Assembly (NCBI RefSeq): GCF_900169565.1
Contig: NZ_LT828648.1
Coordinates: forward strand, 1,490,876-1,554,875
DNA from: Nitrospira japonica
GTDB lineage: Bacteria > Nitrospirota > Nitrospiria > Nitrospirales > Nitrospiraceae
DNA length: 64,000 nucleotides
Direction: 5' to 3'
Below the pieces are notes generated by a model. It worked only from the letters and a program-made list of their open reading frames with translations, was not told the DNA's origin and ran no database searches. Below are positions 4,864 to 48,950 of this stretch, in pieces. Numbering within the stretch: the stretch's first letter is position 1; the number at the start of each line of letters is the position of its first letter. The position numbers and the translations under genes are program-made.

Positions 4864-5880
4864 ATGCCAATCACACGTATCGGAGTCATCGGTGCCGGAG
4901 CCTGGGGAACTGCCCTCGCCAAGCATTTGGCCGAGAAAGGGCTGCTCGTACGGCTATGGGCCTATGAACGGGAGGTCGTCGAGTCGATTCGCGCGTCACG
5001 CGAAAACCGGCTCTTTCTTCCCGGTGTGATGTTGCCGCGGTCGTTGGCCGTCACCAATATTCTGGGAGAGGCGGTGCAGGATTGCGACGGCCTCCTGTTC
5101 GCCGTTCCGTCGCATGTCGCCCGTCCCGTGTTGCGAGAGATGGCTCCGCTTCTTTCTTCGGGCATTCCGGTCATCAGCGCGACCAAAGGGGTGGAAGAAG
5201 ATTCACTTCAGTTGATATCCCAGATCATGGACGACGTGCTTCCCCGGCATATGCGTGACCGAATTCTGGTCCTCTCAGGACCGAGTTTTGCCGCAGAGGT
5301 GAGCCAAGGCCAGCCGACCGCGCTGTGCCTGGCCGGCCGCGACGGTGAACTGGCTGCCGCCTTTCAAGCCGCGTGCATGACCTCGGCGTTGCGGATTTAT
5401 GCCGACAGCGATCTCATCGGAGTCCAACTGGGCGGCGCGCTCAAGAACGTCATGGCGTTGGCCGCTGGAGTCGTCGACGGCCTGGGCCTCGGCCACAACA
5501 CGCGGGCGGCGCTGATTACCAGAGGCCTTGCCGAAATGGTCCGCCTCGGTACGGCGATGGGTGCGGATCCCAGAACCTTTTACGGCCTGTCCGGGGTCGG
5601 GGATTTGGTGCTGACCTGCACCGGAACTTTGAGTCGCAACCATACGGTCGGGGTCCGGTTGGGCAGGGGGGAAAAGCTGGAAACGGTGTTGAGCGGCATG
5701 CAGGCCGTGGCCGAAGGGGTCCGAACCGCAAGGGCCGCGCTCGGGCTCGCCCGCCGGTCGGGAGTCGAGATGCCCATCGTACAGGAAATCAACGCCGTGT
5801 TGTTCGATGGAAAGTCCTGTCGTCGCGCCGTGACCGATCTGATGGAACGTGGCGCAAAACCGGAGAAGGGCATCGCATGA
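4864..5880 (+). CDS. gpsA: NAD(P)-dependent glycerol-3-phosphate dehydrogenase
   Basis: GpsA reduces dihydroxyacetone phosphate to sn-glycerol-3-phosphate, the backbone for phospholipids, in the cytoplasm. The 338-residue length is typical. The N-terminal Rossmann motif IGVIGAGAWGTALA, the SATKGVE segment, the LSGPSFAAEV block and the GGALKNVMALAAGV catalytic-lysine region are all present. Its TGA stop overlaps the ATG of larB (ATGA), so the two are translationally coupled. No obvious Shine-Dalgarno sequence precedes the ATG. Assignment is secure. Confidence 0.96.
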   Translation: MPITRIGVIGAGAWGTALAKHLAEKGLLVRLWAYEREVVESIRASRENRLFLPGVMLPRSLAVTNILGEAVQDCDGLLFAVPSHVARPVLREMAPLLSSGIPVISATKGVEEDSLQLISQIMDDVLPRHMRDRILVLSGPSFAAEVSQGQPTALCLAGRDGELAAAFQAACMTSALRIYADSDLIGVQLGGALKNVMALAAGVVDGLGLGHNTRAALITRGLAEMVRLGTAMGADPRTFYGLSGVGDLVLTCTGTLSRNHTVGVRLGRGEKLETVLSGMQAVAEGVRTARAALGLARRSGVEMPIVQEINAVLFDGKSCRRAVTDLMERGAKPEKGIA

Positions 5881-17929: not shown

Positions 17930-17998
17930 TTGAATGTTGGGTGCTGAAGTCTGAGCTATCGGAAACTACACACTCACGACTCAACACTCAAAACTTGA
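17930..17998. repeat. Heptad-word array A, paired arms
   Basis: The 86-nt gap after the radical SAM gene is built from degenerate 7-nt words held in strict register. On the plus strand the first arm reads TTGAATG, TTGGGTG, CTGAAGT, CTGAGCT (17930-17957). The second arm reads AACTACA, CACTCAC, GACTCAA, CACTCAA, AACTTGA (17964-17998), five words of the form xACTxxx. The arms are roughly reverse-complementary, so the transcript could fold. The radical SAM stop codon lies inside the second arm. Confidence 0.7.
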
Positions 17999-19373
17999 AG
18001 ACAGGAGCGTCATTCCCGAACCGCTTCTTGCGCAGCTCCTCCATCAACTCCACGGTGATGAGCGTGACGTGATGTTCCCGGGCGTGCTTTTCGACGCCCT
18101 TTTTGACCATGGCCCTGAGAAAGTAAGGGATTCGGCTCAATCGCAGCGCGGAAGCATCATCCCATAGGACTTCCGACTCTTCCGGTGTATTGAAGGCGAC
18201 CTTGATCTTCTCGCCTCCCTTGGGCGTATAGAGGCACCATTGATCTTCGTCCAGCCAATCCCCGTGGTCGACGTACGGCCTGGCGCGGCAGCCGCCGCAG
18301 ATGTCCGTATACTCACAGTCGCCGCACTTGCCCTTCAGCTGCGGGTAACGGAACGAATTGAACACGTCGGATTGCTCCCACAGATCGGCGAAACTGTTCG
18401 AACGGACGTTGCCGGCCGACAACGGCATGTAGGGGCATGGCGTGAGCTCGCCATTGGGTGTAACGCGGGCGTAGTTCGTTCCGGCGAGACATCCGCCGCC
18501 CATGTAGCCCGTCGCCTTTGTGATCGGAGAATTGGGATCCTTCTCATAGGCGAGCCGCTTGAAATGTGGGGCGCAACGGGCTCGCACTAACATTCCTTTG
18601 TAATTGTCCTGGCAGGTCACGAGGTACCCGAGCACTTCTTCATACTGAGCCGGAGTGATGTCGGTCAGTTCCTCGCCCCGGCCGGTACAGACCATGAAAA
18701 AGACGTTCAGCACTCTCGCGCCCAAGCCGTGCGCCCACTCGATCACCGCCGGCAGTTCCTGGTAGTTCATCGGCTGTGCGCTGAAGTGGACCTGGAATTG
18801 AAGCCCATTTCGCTTGCTGGCCTCGATGCCGGCAACCGCGGCTTCCCACGCACCCGGTACCCCTCTGAACCCATTGTGCTTGGCTGCGTCGAGGGAATCG
18901 ATGCTGATGCCCACTCCCATGACGCCGATGTCTACGAGCGTGCGGGCCATCTGGTCGTCAATGAGCATGCCATTAGTCCCGAACACGACCATGAAGCCGG
19001 ATTGCACGGCATAACGGGCGATGTCGAGAATGTCCGGGCGCACCAACGGTTCTCCTCCGGTGATGACGAGGAGGCACCCCTTGTTGACTTGGGCGATTTG
19101 ATCGATGAGCCGGAAGCATTCTTCGGTCGATAACTCGTCGTCGCCGCCCGCGGCTTTGGTGGTGGCGTCCAGATAGCAGTGATCGCATTTGAGGTTGCAG
19201 CGCTTCGTCAGGTTCAATGCCACCAGATACGGTTTGAAGTCGTCCACCGTCCGGCCGTCCAGGGGGCCGTCCCCCTGCTTGGCGGGAGTGAAAACATTCG
19301 TGATCTGTTGTTGAAACGAACCCAGCGCTCCGGAGAGCGCAGGGTTATTCAAAATTGGAAGTGATTTACCCAT
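17988..19373 (-). CDS. Radical SAM/SPASM protein with C-terminal PCP_red domain
   Basis: The 461-residue protein has the radical SAM cluster motif CNLKCDHC (Cys59, Cys63, Cys66), a GGEPL SAM-binding motif and a SPASM-type cysteine set (CPYMPLSAGNV, then KCGDCEYTDICGGC). This is the layout of NirJ/AhbC/AhbD-like and peptide-modifying enzymes. It ends in a PCP_red domain (about residues 400-450: SRIPYFLRAMVKKGVEKHAREH), the small domain also found at the C-terminus of the light-independent protochlorophyllide reductase B subunit. The upstream gene, 27 nt away, carries three more such domains. A tetrapyrrole-related role is an inference. Confidence 0.88.
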   Translation of the reverse strand: MGKSLPILNNPALSGALGSFQQQITNVFTPAKQGDGPLDGRTVDDFKPYLVALNLTKRCNLKCDHCYLDATTKAAGGDDELSTEECFRLIDQIAQVNKGCLLVITGGEPLVRPDILDIARYAVQSGFMVVFGTNGMLIDDQMARTLVDIGVMGVGISIDSLDAAKHNGFRGVPGAWEAAVAGIEASKRNGLQFQVHFSAQPMNYQELPAVIEWAHGLGARVLNVFFMVCTGRGEELTDITPAQYEEVLGYLVTCQDNYKGMLVRARCAPHFKRLAYEKDPNSPITKATGYMGGGCLAGTNYARVTPNGELTPCPYMPLSAGNVRSNSFADLWEQSDVFNSFRYPQLKGKCGDCEYTDICGGCRARPYVDHGDWLDEDQWCLYTPKGGEKIKVAFNTPEESEVLWDDASALRLSRIPYFLRAMVKKGVEKHAREHHVTLITVELMEELRKKRFGNDAPVFKF

Positions 19374-19400
19374 GGTGTCGGCGAATTTGGTCGCGGGAGG

Positions 19401-21485
19401 TTAGGAACTCAATTTCCCGGTGAGGTTTGCGATCATATCCTTCAAGTTGCCGGTCTTCATGGCGTCGGCCATGTAGCCCTTGGCTTGCTCGATGCCTTCG
19501 TTGGCCACTTCCACCGTGATCATCGTCACTCCGAGCTTTTCGGCATGCTTGATGATGAGCGCCTTGGTGCAGTCCCGCATGAATCCTTCCGGAGCGCGGT
19601 CCAGTCTGGCTTGGGCGTCGGCCGTCCATGTATAGGGAGAAGACTCGGTGTGACCGTTGTCGGCCGCATGGCCGTTTTCATGCGTGCCATTGGCGCCCAC
19701 GGCGGCCACCTTGGCTTCCGCCTCCGCCGAGGTCCCGGCGCCTTTGTTGGCGAAGATCGGTTCGTAGTCTTCCTCCGCGGCTTCCTTGATCGTCGGCGCG
19801 GCGTATTCAAGCGTGATAGTGGTCATGCCCAGCTTGCGGGCGCTTTTCTCGATCTTGGCCTTGGCCCGCCGCCGTTGGAATCCGGCCGGAACGGCGCGGA
19901 TCGCCTCCTTGGCATCCTTGGTCCATTGCATCGGCACGTCGTCGTAGGCGACGTCGGTCTCAAGGTCGCCCTCCGACTTGGCGGCCGCTTCGAAGATGCT
20001 CTTGTCCACCTGCTTGAACCTGCCGCCTTCGGCACCGCACACCGGACATTTCACCGGCGTGTCGCCCTTGCCGATGTATCCGCACCCGTCGCATACGAAG
20101 TAGTTCTGGTTCATGCGGTCGAGATAGGCCTGGGTCGCGTCCGATGCGGCCGGCTTTTCCTCGACCACCTGAGTCATCATGCCGCTGAGCGTCGAACCCA
20201 TGAGATCTTTGGCGACGGCGTCATCAGCCTGCATTTTGTCGCGGTCGATACCGGCAGCATCGAGATTGCCGCCGAGCGCCCGCATCGCGTCCATGGCGCC
20301 TTTCGGCAGGATATGGCCCACAGCCGCATCCACGACCGTATTGCTGATGATGGTGTGCCCTTTTTCAATGGCATAGCGATGAATGGCGGTTTTGGCCACG
20401 CCGCGGGCGAACACGGGAATCCTTTCCATGCGGCGCAAGGCTTCCTCGGTCCAGGCAATCGTGTACTCGGCCTGCGTGTCGATCGGGGGCACATACTTCC
20501 GATTGGAGACCAGCACGTTGCAGGGGGCGCTCCGGAGCAGATTTTCCGTGTTGCTTCCGACGTCCATGTCTTCGTCGCTGTGGACGCCGATCCGGCCGAC
20601 GATCAGCAGGGCGGGAACATCCTTGCGGACGTATTGAATGATTTTTTCGAACGCCTTGCCGTCGAGCAGAGTGGTCTTCACGTCGGTCTGCTCCGCCTGG
20701 GCGATCTCGCGCGAAATATCGAGGTGCGATTGGTAAATCTTGGCGAGGCCGCTGTCGATGATCTCCTCGTGCAGCTTTTCCTGCTCTTTGAAGCGGAACA
20801 CCTTGCCGGCTTCCTCGTTCAGGACGCCCGAAATACTGTGGAACGCCGCGTAATGGAAATAGGGATCGAAGGCCGAAATGACCTCGACCGGCATATTGAA
20901 GGCCTTGCCCAACGACAGCCCGGTCATGAGGCCGCCGAACGAATACGGGCTGCCGTCCACCGCGACGACGATCTTTCCGCCCTCGAACGGCTGAATGTTC
21001 TTGATGATGAGCATGTCGGAATTGCGGACCCGGCGGATCACCCGCTCGGTGTTGCTGCCGATCACGCTGTCTTTGACAGCGCCCACGCCGAGGGCGCCCA
21101 TGATGACGAGGTCATACGCGTTAGTGTTGATGTCCTCGGCCAGCACCTTCCAGTTACGGCCCTCGAGAGACCGCCGTTCGACCGGCAGGTTCGCCTCATT
21201 ACACTTCTTGTCGACGTAATCGAGGTAGGAGTCGGTGATGATCTGCAGGCCGCGGGTGATCAGCGAATCATGGATCTGCCGCTGCCGGTCGAGTTCTTTC
21301 TCGTCGTGATACTCTTCCGGGAGTCCCGCTTCCATCTGTTTGAAACGTTTGTCATGCATTTTCGCCGCGTAGACATGGCTGCCGACGATCTTCGAGCCGA
21401 ATGCCTTGGCCAAATGCACGCCCATATCCACGGCGGTATTGGAATGGTCGGAATTATCGACCGGAACATAAATCGTCTTATACAT
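19401..21485 (-). CDS. Tandem universal stress protein with three PCP_red domains and a rubredoxin-like knuckle
   Basis: The 694-residue protein is a fusion. USP domain 1 spans residues 1-165, with the ATP-site pattern G130-x2-G133-x9-G143-S144. USP domain 2 spans 170-330, with G297-x2-G300-x9-G310-S311. PCP_red domain 1 lies at 345-392. A rubredoxin-like knuckle follows (Cys465, Cys468, Cys480, Cys483). PCP_red 2 (519-565) and 3 (618-668) flank an acidic/Ala/His-rich linker. ATG 21485 is preceded by AGGAGG at ideal spacing. It heads the likely operon with radical SAM and CopD-like genes. ATP binding, iron binding and perhaps tetrapyrrole contact are suggested; the actual role is unknown. Confidence 0.88.
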   Translation of the reverse strand: MYKTIYVPVDNSDHSNTAVDMGVHLAKAFGSKIVGSHVYAAKMHDKRFKQMEAGLPEEYHDEKELDRQRQIHDSLITRGLQIITDSYLDYVDKKCNEANLPVERRSLEGRNWKVLAEDINTNAYDLVIMGALGVGAVKDSVIGSNTERVIRRVRNSDMLIIKNIQPFEGGKIVVAVDGSPYSFGGLMTGLSLGKAFNMPVEVISAFDPYFHYAAFHSISGVLNEEAGKVFRFKEQEKLHEEIIDSGLAKIYQSHLDISREIAQAEQTDVKTTLLDGKAFEKIIQYVRKDVPALLIVGRIGVHSDEDMDVGSNTENLLRSAPCNVLVSNRKYVPPIDTQAEYTIAWTEEALRRMERIPVFARGVAKTAIHRYAIEKGHTIISNTVVDAAVGHILPKGAMDAMRALGGNLDAAGIDRDKMQADDAVAKDLMGSTLSGMMTQVVEEKPAASDATQAYLDRMNQNYFVCDGCGYIGKGDTPVKCPVCGAEGGRFKQVDKSIFEAAAKSEGDLETDVAYDDVPMQWTKDAKEAIRAVPAGFQRRRAKAKIEKSARKLGMTTITLEYAAPTIKEAAEEDYEPIFANKGAGTSAEAEAKVAAVGANGTHENGHAADNGHTESSPYTWTADAQARLDRAPEGFMRDCTKALIIKHAEKLGVTMITVEVANEGIEQAKGYMADAMKTGNLKDMIANLTGKLSS

Positions 21486-22179
21486 CGAGATGCCTCCTCC
21501 GGGCCCTCTCACCGTCAAGGTCGAACCGTCATAATTGCCAGAAAAACCAAACGGTTGACAAACCTATCCAGTGTAAAAGAAGCGGCATGATAGCACCGAC
21601 CATCTCGGGAATGCAAGGCGACCCGTAGATAGCCACATCACCGCCGGGCTGGCTCCGAGCGACAACCATCTGATCAATTCGGAGATCTCGATTCATGACG
21701 CGCAAGCTTAGTGCCAAGCGAGCATGAACGCCGGATTTCTTGAAAAAGATGTCGGAACAAAGGGACACAGGCAACGGGCGCGTGACCGGACAAGAGAGAA
21801 ACGCCGGCTCGAATACAGTGGGAATCGTGAAGGAAGGCGATTTGTGACGAAGAGGCGCGGCCCTTCGCGGAAAGATTAGCCGGTGGGTTGAGAACCCAAC
21901 CACGCTGAGCGCGGTCATGTGGAAGAGTGCGTCAGCGATGTTCCCTTGTCGATCGATGAGGCACGGGACCTGGACGCTCGGAGGATTTCTTCGAGCGAAA
22001 GCAAGGCGTCGCGCCCGGAATTGCCTTCAATGCCGCGGGCGAGGTTGGCGTCGGCATATTGGCCGTGATTCCAATCGGATAGATCTTTTTTTGCAGGGCA
22101 GGAAAATGTAAAGGATGGAGTTCATGGCCGTGAAATTGTGAGCGGTGATTTTAAAACTGAAAACTCACAACCGAACACT
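21486..22179. other. Intergenic region upstream of the USP operon
   Basis: About 690 bases separate the USP gene from ubiE, both on the minus strand. A 129-codon frame at 21529-21918 (minus) has no family signature and a composition unlike its neighbours, so it is not called. The region next to 21485 must contain the USP promoter; a TTGTCA on the minus strand near 21558 is a weak -35 candidate. The far end (22130-22179) holds heptad array B. I found no other structure. Confidence 0.5.
22130..22179. repeat. Heptad-word array B after ubiE
   Basis: Directly after the ubiE stop the sequence consists of 7-nt words in register on the plus strand: GTGAGCG, GTGATTT (22138-22151), then TAAAACT, GAAAACT, CACAACC, GAACACT (22152-22179). 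One more GTGAAAT word lies at 22130, shifted by one base. The GTGA-type words and the AAAACT/CACAACC-type words run toward each other as a loose inverted pair, as in array A. Word sequences partly match array A when both are read from the minus strand (AGTGTT..GT.GTGAGT). Confidence 0.6.
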
Positions 22180-44986: not shown

Positions 44987-45011
44987 CTCTCGCCGGTAGA
45001 TTCAGCGAGAG
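44987..45011. terminator. Hairpin between the convergent porin and uvrC genes
   Basis: CTCTCGC (44987-44993) pairs with GCGAGAG (45005-45011) across an 11-nt loop in the 23-nt gap between two convergent stops; the right arm reaches into uvrC's last codons. No T-tract is present. A bidirectional terminator is plausible from position only. Confidence 0.35.
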
Positions 45012-46816
45012 TCCGTGAGCGTTTTACGAAGTTCCGCGACGGTCCGTTCGTCGATCCCGGATTCTCTCAGGGCGTCGTCGCTGGCTGCCGCCACCCGCTC
45101 GACGCTGCCGAATCGTTTGAGCAGGCGGGCGCGTCTGATCTCGCCGATTCCGATGATCTGATCCAATTTCGAAGAAAGAAGCGCCTTGCCCCGCAGCGTG
45201 CGATGGAAGGACACCGCGAAGCGGTGCGCTTCGTCGCGAATCCGCTGCAGTAGATGGGTGGCAGGCGATTGTCCTCTCAAGGGGATCGGGTTTTTCCGTC
45301 CCGCCAGGAAGACGCGCTCGTCCTTTTCACCGCGCGCCTTCGCCAGCCCGATCACGGGAAGATGGCCTTCTCCGACCTGCCTGAGCCCTTCGATGGCGGC
45401 GGCCAACTGGCCGAGCCCGCCGTCGATGAGAACAAGATCCGGCCGTGCCAAGCCTTCCATGCCGCCGTACCGACGGGAGACGGCCTCTTGAATGCTGGCG
45501 AAGTCGTTGGCTCCCTCGACCGTGGCGATTTTGAATTTCCGATAATCGGCCTTCTTCATAGTGCCGTCTTCCCATACGACCATCGAGGCGACGGATTGGG
45601 CGCCCATGGTATTGGAAATGTCGAAGCCCTCGATGCGGCGGGGAGCACGGTCGAGCCGAAACAGGCGCCGGAGTTCCTCGCCCGCCTGACGGTCGATGGC
45701 CTCGTCTCGCAAATGGTCGGCCGCCGCCGCCGCCGCGTTTTCCTCCGCCAGTTTGACCAACTGATGTTTTGTGCCACGCTCCGGCACGAGCACTCGCACG
45801 CTATCCCCGCGCTTTTCGGACAGCCATCGGGTGATCAAGTCGACGTCCGGAATGTCCGCCGGCACCAGCAATTCGGCCGGCGGCTGGCCGTCCTTGTTAT
45901 AAAATTGTTCGACGGCGGCGACCACCAATTCGTCGTCGGGCGTATCGGCGGCGCTGGGCCAGAAAAAGTCTTTGCGCCCGATCAGGAGTCCGCCCCGCAC
46001 GAACAGGAGCTGAAGGTCGACTGCCGCGCCCAGCCGCGCGATGCCGATGACGTCCTGATCGACCGATGCGGTCTGCGTGATTCGTTGCCGCTCCAGGGTC
46101 CGCTCGATCTTGAACATGCGGTCGCGCAGCCGCGCCGCCTCTTCGAAGTCCTCCCGTTCCGCCGCGGCCTCCATGCCCGCGCGAAGCTCGTCCAATAATT
46201 CGCGGTCGCGCCCCTCCAGGAACTGGCGCACCTGCTTGACGATCTCGTGGTACTCGTCCCTGGATTGATTGCCGGTGCAGGGAGCCATGCAGCGCTTGAT
46301 CTCGAATTCGATGCAGGCGCGTTCCGCCTTCCCGTCGATCTCGATGCTGCACGTGGCCAAGGGAAACACTTTCTTGATGACTTTCAACGTCTCCCGCAAT
46401 GCGCCGGCCGGGGTATAGGGGCCGTAATACAACGCCCCGTCCCGCTGCACCCGACGGACGATGGAAAGGCGGGGGAAATCTTCTTTGACCGGCAGTCGGA
46501 GGTAGGGATACTGCTTGTCGTCGCGGAGCACCACGTTGAATCGCGGCCGGTGGCGTTTGACGAGGTTGCTCTCAAGGATCAGCGCTTCGAGTTCGGAGCG
46601 CGTCACCATAATTTCGAGATCGGCGATCAGGCTGACCAGCAGGGAGGTCTTGGGAGAATGGTTGCCGCCCTTCTGAAAATACGAGCGCACGCGATCGGCC
46701 AGCACGGCGGCCTTTCCGATATACACCACGTCACCCGCGGCGTCTTTGAACAGGTAGACGCCCGGCTGGTTCGGCAGGCGGGCCAGCTTGGCTTGAAGAT
46801 CGGCTGACAAGACCAT
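45002..46816 (-). CDS. uvrC: Excinuclease ABC subunit C
   Basis: UvrC makes both incisions in nucleotide excision repair. The 604-residue protein contains the GIY-YIG nuclease at its start (PGVYLFKDAAGDVVYIGKA), a UVR domain for UvrB contact (REDFEEAARLRDRMFKIERTLE), the RNase H-like nuclease region (IEGFDISNTMGAQSVASMVVWEDG with the catalytic Asp) and C-terminal helix-hairpin-helix motifs (IIGIGEIRRARLLKRFGSVERVAAA). Length and order are standard. It is convergent with the porin gene and about 95 nt downstream of the dapF-like gene. Confidence 0.96.
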   Translation of the reverse strand: MVLSADLQAKLARLPNQPGVYLFKDAAGDVVYIGKAAVLADRVRSYFQKGGNHSPKTSLLVSLIADLEIMVTRSELEALILESNLVKRHRPRFNVVLRDDKQYPYLRLPVKEDFPRLSIVRRVQRDGALYYGPYTPAGALRETLKVIKKVFPLATCSIEIDGKAERACIEFEIKRCMAPCTGNQSRDEYHEIVKQVRQFLEGRDRELLDELRAGMEAAAEREDFEEAARLRDRMFKIERTLERQRITQTASVDQDVIGIARLGAAVDLQLLFVRGGLLIGRKDFFWPSAADTPDDELVVAAVEQFYNKDGQPPAELLVPADIPDVDLITRWLSEKRGDSVRVLVPERGTKHQLVKLAEENAAAAAADHLRDEAIDRQAGEELRRLFRLDRAPRRIEGFDISNTMGAQSVASMVVWEDGTMKKADYRKFKIATVEGANDFASIQEAVSRRYGGMEGLARPDLVLIDGGLGQLAAAIEGLRQVGEGHLPVIGLAKARGEKDERVFLAGRKNPIPLRGQSPATHLLQRIRDEAHRFAVSFHRTLRGKALLSSKLDQIIGIGEIRRARLLKRFGSVERVAAASDDALRESGIDERTVAELRKTLTDSR

Positions 46817-46910: not shown

Positions 46911-47795
46911 TCACTTCCCGCGCTTGGCGCGAAGCTCCCGCAGGAACGAGGCACTGAGTGTGCCTCTGGCCACTTCGGCCACCGGGCCCTTCATGGTGAG
47001 GCTGAAGTCCTGCGCGACCTCGATCGTGAGCGCGCCGCCCGGCATCTTGACCGTCACCGGAGAGCGCACGAGCCCGAGTCTGACTGCGGCGGAAGCCGCC
47101 GCGCAGGATGAGGAACCGGACGCTTGCGTTTCTCCCGCGCCCCGCTCCCAAATCAGGATGAAGAGTTCGGCGGGGCCGGTGGGAACGGCCAGTTGCACGT
47201 TGGTCCGCTTGGGAAAGATCGCATGATTCTCCAGCGCCGGCCCCAGCGCAAGGAGGTCTTCGCGTGACCAGGATTCGCCTGAGGGTTTGAGGACGACGCA
47301 ATGGGGATTGCCGACGCTGACTCCCGTGAATCGAAGCGAACGCCCGGCCGCATCGATCGGTTCCCGGAGTAATTCGTCGACGCGCAGCGTACAGGGAAGC
47401 GCAGCGGGATCGAACGTGGCCCGCCCCATCTCGACGGTGGCGGACGCGGCGTCCCCGTGGCGGTCGAGATGCAAGGCGATGCTCACGAGCCCACCCTTCG
47501 TGTCCACCGTGAACCGGGTTTTTTTCGTCCGCCCGGTCGCGTGGAGGTAGCGGGAGAAAATGCGGAGGCCGTTGCCCGATTTTTCCGCTTCGCTGCCGTC
47601 GGGATTGAAAATGCGAAGACCGAAATCGGCCCGCTTCGTCGGAACGATGGCCAAAATTCCGTCGCTGCCGAGTCCCCAGTTACGGTCGCATATCCGTTTG
47701 ATCGAAGCAGGCGTCAGGGAGAAGGTCAACTCCTTGGGGTCCATGACGAGGTAATCGTTCCCCAGCCCGTGCCCCCGAAAAAATCCGTTCTTCAT
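46911..47795 (-). CDS. DapF-family epimerase with both catalytic cysteines replaced by serine
   Basis: The 294-residue protein aligns over its length with diaminopimelate epimerase: FRGHGLGNDYLVMD start, NPDGSEAEKSGNGLR, GVSVGNPHCVV, and GAGETQASGSSSCAA. In true DapF the two acid/base cysteines are Cys73 (QCGNG) and Cys217 (ACGSG). Here both are serine: Ser73 in KSGNG and Ser226 in ASGSS. The DNA reads TCG and TCC at these codons, so the changes are unambiguous. Cys-to-Ser enzymes are reported to lose racemisation. It may be an unusual epimerase, act on another substrate, or need a partner. dapF was not used as symbol for this reason. Confidence 0.85.
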   Translation of the reverse strand: MKNGFFRGHGLGNDYLVMDPKELTFSLTPASIKRICDRNWGLGSDGILAIVPTKRADFGLRIFNPDGSEAEKSGNGLRIFSRYLHATGRTKKTRFTVDTKGGLVSIALHLDRHGDAASATVEMGRATFDPAALPCTLRVDELLREPIDAAGRSLRFTGVSVGNPHCVVLKPSGESWSREDLLALGPALENHAIFPKRTNVQLAVPTGPAELFILIWERGAGETQASGSSSCAAASAAVRLGLVRSPVTVKMPGGALTIEVAQDFSLTMKGPVAEVARGTLSASFLRELRAKRGK

Positions 47796-47885: not shown

Positions 47886-48051
47886 CGGCCGTCCGGCAAG
47901 GGCCGCAGCGAGGAGACTGTCGCCCCTCCGATCGGCGACGGTTCCGTTGCCGTCGGAAACCGGGACAGGCACCGGCTGCGCCAGAGCCAGTCCCCCGTGA
48001 GTCCCTGAGCGACGCGGGAACGAAGCCGGCGGACTTTTCAACAGCCTGCTA
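47886..48051. repeat. MITE-like imperfect inverted-repeat element
   Basis: About 165 bp between the DapF-like gene and the VOC gene form an imperfect inverted repeat. The right end, read from the minus strand, is TAGCAGGCTGTTGAAAAGTC followed by CGCCGGCTTCG and GCGTCGCTCAGG. The left end has CCGTCCGGCAAGGGCCGCAG. I recall closely similar elements (CAGGCTGCTGAAAAAGTCCGCC ... GCGGCCTTGCTGGACGG) as repeated intergenic sequences in Nitrospira-like genomes. It includes the VOC stop codon and carries no gene. Confidence 0.5.
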
Positions 48052-48447
48052 GACGATCGTCACGCCGTTCGGACGCTCGATCAGTTCGATCTCATAGCCG
48101 TCCGGAGCGTCAATGAAGATGAACCGGCTGCCCGACGACGTCGTCGTGGGCCCGTCGGTAATGGGGACACCCTTGGCGCCGAGCGCGACGATGGTGTCGT
48201 CGAGGTTCTCGACTTGGAAGGCCAGGTGGACAAGATCTTCCTGCACCCGCACGGGGCCGCTGGGCGGGAAGCTGGTCAGTTCGATCAGTTCATCGCTGTT
48301 GGGCACCTTCAAGAAGGCTAGTTGCGATCCCCGGGGGGAGGTCTTTCGTTCCAGTACGTCCAACCCCAGGACCTCCGTATAGAACCGGATCGTCCTGTCC
48401 AGGTCAGTGACGCGCATTCGGGTGTGGAGAAATTTGGCGACGCGCAT
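48049..48447 (-). CDS. VOC-family (glyoxalase-like) protein
   Basis: The 132-residue protein is a single vicinal-oxygen-chelate unit of the lactoylglutathione lyase type: HTRMRVTDLDRTIRFYTEVLGL at the start, HLAFQVENLDDTIVAL in the middle and FIDAPDGYEIELIER near the end. The metal ligands His and Glu expected of glyoxalase I are at 'HTRMRV', 'HLAFQV' and 'EIELIE'. The frame stays open to 48855, but AAGGAA just upstream of ATG 48447 and the family start decide the N-terminus. Methylglyoxal detoxification is possible; other VOC activities cannot be excluded. Confidence 0.82.
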   Translation of the reverse strand: MRVAKFLHTRMRVTDLDRTIRFYTEVLGLDVLERKTSPRGSQLAFLKVPNSDELIELTSFPPSGPVRVQEDLVHLAFQVENLDDTIVALGAKGVPITDGPTTTSSGSRFIFIDAPDGYEIELIERPNGVTIV

Positions 48448-48458
48448 GGTTCGTTCCT

Positions 48459-48950
48459 TTACTCCCGCATCGAGGGACCGCTGGTTTTTCTGAGGAGCAT
48501 TTCGGCGGATCCGGGGATGAGCAGATCGGGGATCGCGCCGATTTCCTGATAGCCGTGCTTCCGGTAGAACCGGCGGGCCGGCTCGTTGAAGTCCGAGACA
48601 CAGATGAAAAGATTCTTGGCCCGCGCAAAGACGAGGGATTCGACGTACGCCAGCAACCGGCCTCCGAGCCCCCGGCTCCTGGCGGCTTCCGCGACGCCGA
48701 AGAGTTCCAGATAGTCGCCGAGAAGAAACTTTTGCCGGACGACGGCGACACCGGCGGCGAGGCCGTCCTGATCCACCACGTAACTGTCGCGTCCCTGCGG
48801 CAGGGGAGCGAAATACCGGTTCCAATCGGCGGCGGTATGCCCCAAACGTTTCCACGGCTGGGAGGCGAGCAACAGGCGGATAACGGGCTCGCGGTCTTCC
48901 GGCCTCATGATCCTGATGGGTGGGAACCTCACGGAGCTGGCGGTTGGCAT
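48459..48950 (-). CDS. GNAT-family N-acetyltransferase
   Basis: The 163-residue protein has the GNAT acetyl-CoA motif VAEAARSRGLGGRLLAYVESLVFARG-like region (R-x2-G-x-G/A as RSRGLGG) and a C-terminal FICVSDFNEPARRFYRKHGYQEIG segment. Substrate is unknown. The start is set at ATG 48950 (MPTASSVRFPP) with GAGG seven bases before it. It overlaps the end of the deacetylase-like gene by 22 nt and ends 11 nt before the VOC gene, suggesting a three-gene transcript. Confidence 0.85.
   Translation of the reverse strand: MPTASSVRFPPIRIMRPEDREPVIRLLLASQPWKRLGHTAADWNRYFAPLPQGRDSYVVDQDGLAAGVAVVRQKFLLGDYLELFGVAEAARSRGLGGRLLAYVESLVFARAKNLFICVSDFNEPARRFYRKHGYQEIGAIPDLLIPGSAEMLLRKTSGPSMRE

Follow-up and report, generated by a model that had tools for sequence, protein, structure and literature searches.

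Nitrospira japonica encodes a single member of the diaminopimelate (DAP) epimerase family, and this protein has serine in the places of both catalytic cysteines. We consider it likely that the gene, which lies within a 64,000-nucleotide stretch of contig NZ_LT828648.1 (the window), encodes the LL-DAP epimerase of this genome and belongs to a separate, widespread DapF clade with serine acid/bases. Homology, predicted fold, conservation, occurrence as the sole DapF, pathway context and the replacement of other DapF types all point to this activity. We also lean towards a broader proposal, in which a whole clade of cofactor-independent epimerases would use two serines, with help from a neighboring lysine, as the acid/base pair, would repeatedly have taken the place of the thiol/thiolate form in a pathway, that of DAP, which is essential, and would be immune to cysteine oxidation and thiol reagents. 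A literature search that excluded most subscription journals, preprints and UniProt found no report of a DapF without both catalytic cysteines.

Profile searches with the 294-residue protein gave a match to the DapF model TIGR00652 over residues 5-280 (219.3 bits; cut-off 114.65). A Pfam scan matched PF01678, with PhzC-PhzF reaching only E = 0.12, under its cut-off, and no match to PF05544, the proline racemase/hydroxyproline epimerase superfamily. Scores were far below the thresholds of NF038284, the bifunctional DapF/glutamate racemase model (50.5 vs 350 bits), and of NF033599, the CntK histidine racemase model (12.3 vs 300 bits). The O-ureidoserine racemase DcsC (7vdy) and the histidine racemases HisR and CntK are also amino-acid racemases with a DapF-like fold, but those known are of the Cys/Cys type, act on different substrates and match the Ser/Ser protein more weakly than DapF does. 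Curated models name Ser/Ser genes plain dapF, which hides the Cys/Ser difference. The gene order around Ser/Ser dapF (Table 1) is the same in N. moscoviensis, and in other phyla the neighbors are mixed, with lysA or a dapF-DUF484-xerC arrangement in a few. We rejected guessing another substrate from gene neighbors, as those in Nitrospira (uvrC, glyoxalase, GNAT and polysaccharide deacetylase genes) give no clue to a pathway. Elsewhere in the window (17988-21518), inspection by eye suggested a radical-SAM/SPASM-type protein adjoining a 705-residue protein, both halves of which look universal-stress-like and which also has a CxxC ribbon like that of rubredoxin; the C-terminal segments of the two proteins seem alike.

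Table 1. Positions of the Ser/Ser dapF gene, its active-site codons and neighbors (window coordinates), and of related genes at other loci.
Feature	Location	Strand	Remarks
Ser/Ser DapF-family gene	46911..47795	minus	294 aa; ATG start at 47795
Ser73, codon TCG	47577..47579	minus	place of catalytic Cys73 of H. influenzae DapF
Ser226, codon TCC	47118..47120	minus	place of catalytic Cys217 of H. influenzae DapF
Lys72, codon AAA	47580..47582	minus	Lys in 135/137 Ser/Ser, Met in 81/82 Cys/Cys
Ser229 codon	47109..47111	minus	ASGSS vs ACGTG; Ser in 135/137 Ser/Ser, Gly in 81/82 Cys/Cys
uvrC	45002..46816	minus	downstream neighbor of Ser/Ser dapF; not a lysine gene
Glyoxalase-family protein gene	48049..48480	minus	upstream neighbor of Ser/Ser dapF; start approximate
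argH	L174 7156-8562		N. japonica
lysA	L174 8867-10129		N. japonica
dapA	L174 10210-11082		N. japonica
dapB	L174 11109-11912		N. japonica
Ser/Cys dapF	L366:5484-6311		
Ser/Cys dapF	L367:5459-6286		
Ser/Cys dapF	L368:2599-3423		
Ser/Cys dapF	L369:5819-6625		

In solved DapFs, the aligned counterparts of the window protein's segments EAEKS73GNGLR and ERGAGETQAS226GSSSC are EQCGNG and ERGxGETxACGTG. Alignment and codons thereby confirmed what an earlier note had read from the DNA: serine occupies both catalytic cysteine positions, and the rest of the family signature, including GLGNDY, GNPHCVV and GAGETQ, is intact. Residues Asn11, Asn64, Asn157, Asn190, Glu208 and Arg209 are those that we take to hold DAP in the H. 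influenzae structure, and the matching N13, N64, N163, N199, E217 and R218 were invariant in 48 Ser/Ser representatives. The PROSITE DapF active-site signature is N-x-[DN]-[GS]-[SENGFT]-x(4)-C-[GI]-N-[GA]-x-R (PMC8225329). The window protein departs from it solely at the Cys position; with S written for C, the signature is matched by the window protein (from residue 64) and by 137/137 Ser/Ser sequences. The motif of the second catalytic cysteine, ACG[TS]G, is replaced by ASGSS in the window protein, and Ser226 is found in 137/137 Ser/Ser sequences. Compared with the DapFs of H. influenzae, E. coli, P. aeruginosa and cyanobacteria (9mro), to which it is homologous over its full length with ~35% identity, the Ser/Ser protein also differs in having Lys72 for Met, Ser229 for Gly, Ser44 for Ala and Ile79 for Cys; Gln201, Tyr15 and Pro65 are further clade-specific states. 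Given these states, the change looks, from the aligned sequences, like a rebuilt active site rather than two separate substitutions.

Both serines were kept in all 137 Ser/Ser sequences tallied. They were also present in all 7 genomes of the genus Nitrospira and in all 80 related loci of a second collection, as far as each stretch was complete, the motifs there being KSGNG or RSGNG and ASG[ST]S. One of the carriers is N. moscoviensis, whose chromosome NZ_CP011801.1 is complete; others are Flavobacterium, Neobacillus and Apibacter isolates. Among the 136 of 137 sequences that gave a codon, all six serine codons (AGC, AGT, TCA, TCC, TCG and TCT; 66 AGY and 70 TCN) occurred at position 73, and only TCN occurred at position 226. 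Retention of Ser73 through AGY/TCN switches indicates strong selection for serine at this position. The NG86 comparison with the nearest congener gave dN 0.055 and dS 0.675 (dN/dS ~0.08), dS being near saturation in the other comparisons. In an unrooted maximum-likelihood tree of 82 DapFs, from which the trait columns 72, 73, 226 and 229 had been taken out, a branch supported at 100/100 set all 48 Ser/Ser rows apart; the Flavobacterium Cys/Cys group carries a long-branch warning. The direction of change in this unrooted tree was likely from Cys to Ser. A Ser/Ser form that branches deeply and reads ASGTGAS where ASGSS is usual (loci L241 and L243) occurs in two genomes, G044 and G054, that also encode Cys/Cys DapF, and it may represent an early stage of the Cys-to-Ser change. 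The Ser/Ser clade spans many phyla, although some locus labels are those of metagenome bins and may be wrong.

AlphaFold2, run on the Ser/Ser clade alignment, predicted a DapF-like two-domain fold (pLDDT 94.9). The best PDB match of the model was the inhibitor-bound structure 9mro (VIA Z 37.1, rmsd 1.6, 267 residues); the best matches were DapFs, and the C73S and C217S mutant structures of H. influenzae DapF were also matched. By analogy with DapF, LL-DAP would be held between the two domains, with a pair of helices facing each other and pointing their N-terminal ends at its alpha carboxylate. The alpha carbon would then have Ser73 on one face and Ser226 on the other, to abstract and to donate the proton, and Lys72, Ser229 and Ser44 may adjust the oxyanion pocket or the hydroxyls of the serines. 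Two points speak against a simple exchange of residues. The hydroxyl of serine replaces a thiolate poorly, and in relatives single Cys-to-Ser changes abolish the activity of PddB (PMC8225329) and hinder racemization by HisR (PMC11602996), in agreement with the earlier note's statement that such changes abolish racemization. Because Cys-to-Ser mutants of Cys-type enzymes lose racemization, the additional clade-specific changes, such as Lys72 and Ser229, are probably needed.

The protein could also be a DAP epimerase in which the serines are not both acid/bases, with a one-base mechanism or with Lys72, a conserved cysteine such as Cys36, or an ordered water moving at least one proton. Serine is a weak base, Lys72 replaces Met in 135/137 Ser/Ser proteins, and Cys36 is invariant in all 137. 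We nevertheless regard this alternative as unlikely. Cys36 is nearly as usual in Cys/Cys proteins (74/82), so it is no special compensation, and neither Cys166 nor Cys231 is universal among Ser/Ser sequences; on the same grounds we rejected a displaced catalytic cysteine. Strict retention of Ser73 and Ser226, the former through codon switches, suggests that the hydroxyls matter. Catalytic serine moreover has precedent in this fold at one position, in a hydroxyproline epimerase (Ser93/Cys) and a dehydratase (Ser90/Thr256), for which accessions are inconsistent within the paper (PMC4113996). The former, the Agrobacterium vitis 4-hydroxyproline 2-epimerase of the sister proline racemase superfamily, shares the general fold and still epimerizes with serine at one acid/base place, but it differs from Ser/Ser DapF in family and substrate and keeps Cys at the second place (PMC4113996). 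The Ser/Thr dehydratase, like Ser/Ser DapF, has hydroxyl residues at both places of a DapF-like fold with Ser as the base, but it catalyzes dehydration, a one-sided reaction without epimerization (PMC4113996).

The N. japonica genome is closed in one contig (4.08 Mb, 99.96% complete), and a family search found no DapF besides the Ser/Ser protein. DapL (619 bits), LysA (556), DapA (374) and DapB (316) are all encoded, the last three scoring over cut-off, as is a MurE (534 bits) with the DNPR meso-DAP motif. DapL makes LL-DAP directly, whereas the substrate of LysA is meso-DAP, for which two sources are known, DapF and DAP dehydrogenase. No DAP dehydrogenase was detectable in this genome; the only match, to TIGR01921, was weak (22.5 bits), and we rejected it as a candidate because the gene adjoins pgk and reads as GAPDH. 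Given the DapL, LysA, DapA, DapB and MurE genes above, something must epimerize LL-DAP in N. japonica. We found no published murein analysis of Nitrospira. The earlier note had offered two readings, a neofunctionalized paralog beside a normal dapF elsewhere or a serine-based epimerase in this lineage. The first is contradicted in this genome, which has one DapF, no DAP dehydrogenase and an otherwise complete pathway from LL-DAP to lysine and murein. Neither circumstance that the note named as refuting it applies, be it a Cys/Cys DapF in the genome together with relaxed selection on this gene, or TGC at one of the two codons. The second is better supported as regards the serine form, with catalysis by the serines deduced, and falls short in its restriction to one lineage.

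Cys/Cys DapF was absent from 27 of 32 Ser/Ser genomes across phyla; the other five encode both types, whose functions may differ there. No DAP dehydrogenase scored over cut-off in any of 33 Ser/Ser genomes, and no such bypass did in 63 genomes. lysA was over cut-off in 28 of the 33 and murE in 32, with DNPR in 30/30 murE loci read. Our own count of sequences read in 102 Nitrospirota genomes, including N. japonica and G005, gave 49 with Cys/Cys only, 47 with Ser/Ser only, 4 with Ser/Cys only and 2 with both Ser/Ser and Cys/Cys. The 53 Aquificota genomes read had one copy each, 43 Cys/Cys and 10 Ser/Ser. Such near-exclusive occurrence is expected of interchangeable enzymes. Three genomes of one sister genus encode a full-length DAP dehydrogenase relative (L370:1462-2436; 110-120 bits vs a cut-off of 180.6) that is absent from N. 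japonica and, judged by its sequence, is possibly a divergent DAP dehydrogenase. Neobacillus cucumis (L172) has a Ser/Ser DapF and only one very divergent Cys/Cys relative (ERGVGFTNACGTAMS), which may be other than the ordinary Bacillus DapF.

Ser/Ser DapF appears to have replaced other DapF types on several occasions. At the Nitrospirota Cys/Cys loci read with flanks, dapF lies mostly in lysA-dapF-dapA-dapB, and three sister genera in the family of Nitrospira have argH-lysA-dapF-dapA-dapB with a Ser/Cys DapF. The N. japonica operon is argH-lysA-dapA-dapB, with no dapF between lysA and dapA, and Ser/Ser dapF lies beside uvrC, ~78 kb away; this separation from the lysine genes counts against the epimerase assignment. 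Among 121 Flavobacterium genomes, 3 had only Ser/Ser DapF and 27 others that were read had only Cys/Cys DapF, the remaining genomes, whose sequences were unread, having scores like those of the 27. The sites differ: the Ser/Ser gene precedes an inorganic pyrophosphatase gene, and the Cys/Cys gene lies by GNAT and mltG-like genes. In a Burkholderiales bin (L088), Ser/Ser dapF is followed, as judged by eye, by DUF484 and a xerC-like recombinase gene; dapF-DUF484-xerC is the classical proteobacterial dapF neighborhood. This bin holds two Ser/Ser dapF copies within ~5 kb, the first (634-1358) broken by stops and the second (5001-5837) being the one that precedes DUF484 and the xerC-like gene. lysA directly adjoins Ser/Ser dapF in two Bacteroidota loci (L083 and L075). 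The three natural replacements, in Nitrospira, Flavobacterium and Burkholderiales, argue that the Ser/Ser enzyme epimerizes LL-DAP. A second Nitrospirota clade (loci L217, L218, L219 and L212) resembles the Ser/Ser form in having Ser at position 73 and in being the sole DapF in 4/4 genomes, in the argH-lysA-dapF-dapA-dapB operon in 3/4, but it differs in belonging to another DapF branch (ERGVEDET type), keeping Cys226 and lacking Lys72.

These data also bear on whether the gene encodes a neofunctionalized DapF-fold enzyme, acting on another D-amino acid or catalyzing an elimination or isomerization, with meso-DAP in Nitrospira coming from an unrecognized enzyme. Cys-to-Ser variants of cofactor-independent racemases can favor elimination, as in glutamate racemase mutants (PMC8142540) and the Ser/Thr dehydratase (PMC4113996), some genomes carry Cys/Cys DapF as well, and an epimerase of another kind may lie elsewhere in these genomes, beyond the reach of homology searches. 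This explanation is nonetheless improbable, because most genomes have no DapF but the Ser/Ser protein, amid a pathway that is complete, because it stands in for other types of DapF in three settings independent of one another, and because its DAP-contact residues are retained. Loss of both catalytic cysteines is the expected look of decay in a single sequence, but we give a dead or decaying gene, or a sequencing or assembly error such as a misread TGC codon, practically no weight, as both are refuted by the recurrence of the same residues in many phyla (and in all 7 genus genomes and the 80 loci), by their presence in isolates and in closed genomes, by the low dN/dS and by the six serine codons at position 73.

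As the only candidate enzyme for meso-DAP in Nitrospira and many unrelated bacteria, Ser/Ser DapF means either that serines can do a job thought to be reserved for thiols or that a basic step of lysine synthesis is unexplained. The textbook view of amino-acid racemases that need no cofactor is that of thiol/thiolate enzymes, and it is still being asked how a weak base can take away a proton whose pKa is ~29. If true, a DapF that naturally works with two serines in an essential pathway would show that the thiol can be dispensed with, and would allow the contributions of pocket and helix dipoles to be told apart from that of sulfur. DapF is also an antibacterial target, with thiol-reactive and aziridine inhibitors. 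H2O2 inactivates the C. glutamicum enzyme by way of a disulfide that joins the two catalytic cysteines (PMC5296763), and the Ser/Ser clade should therefore be insensitive to peroxide, as it should to thiol-reactive and aziridine attack. We speculate that an epimerase proof against cysteine oxidation may suit nitrite oxidizers, as well as other lineages that face oxidative or nitrosative stress.
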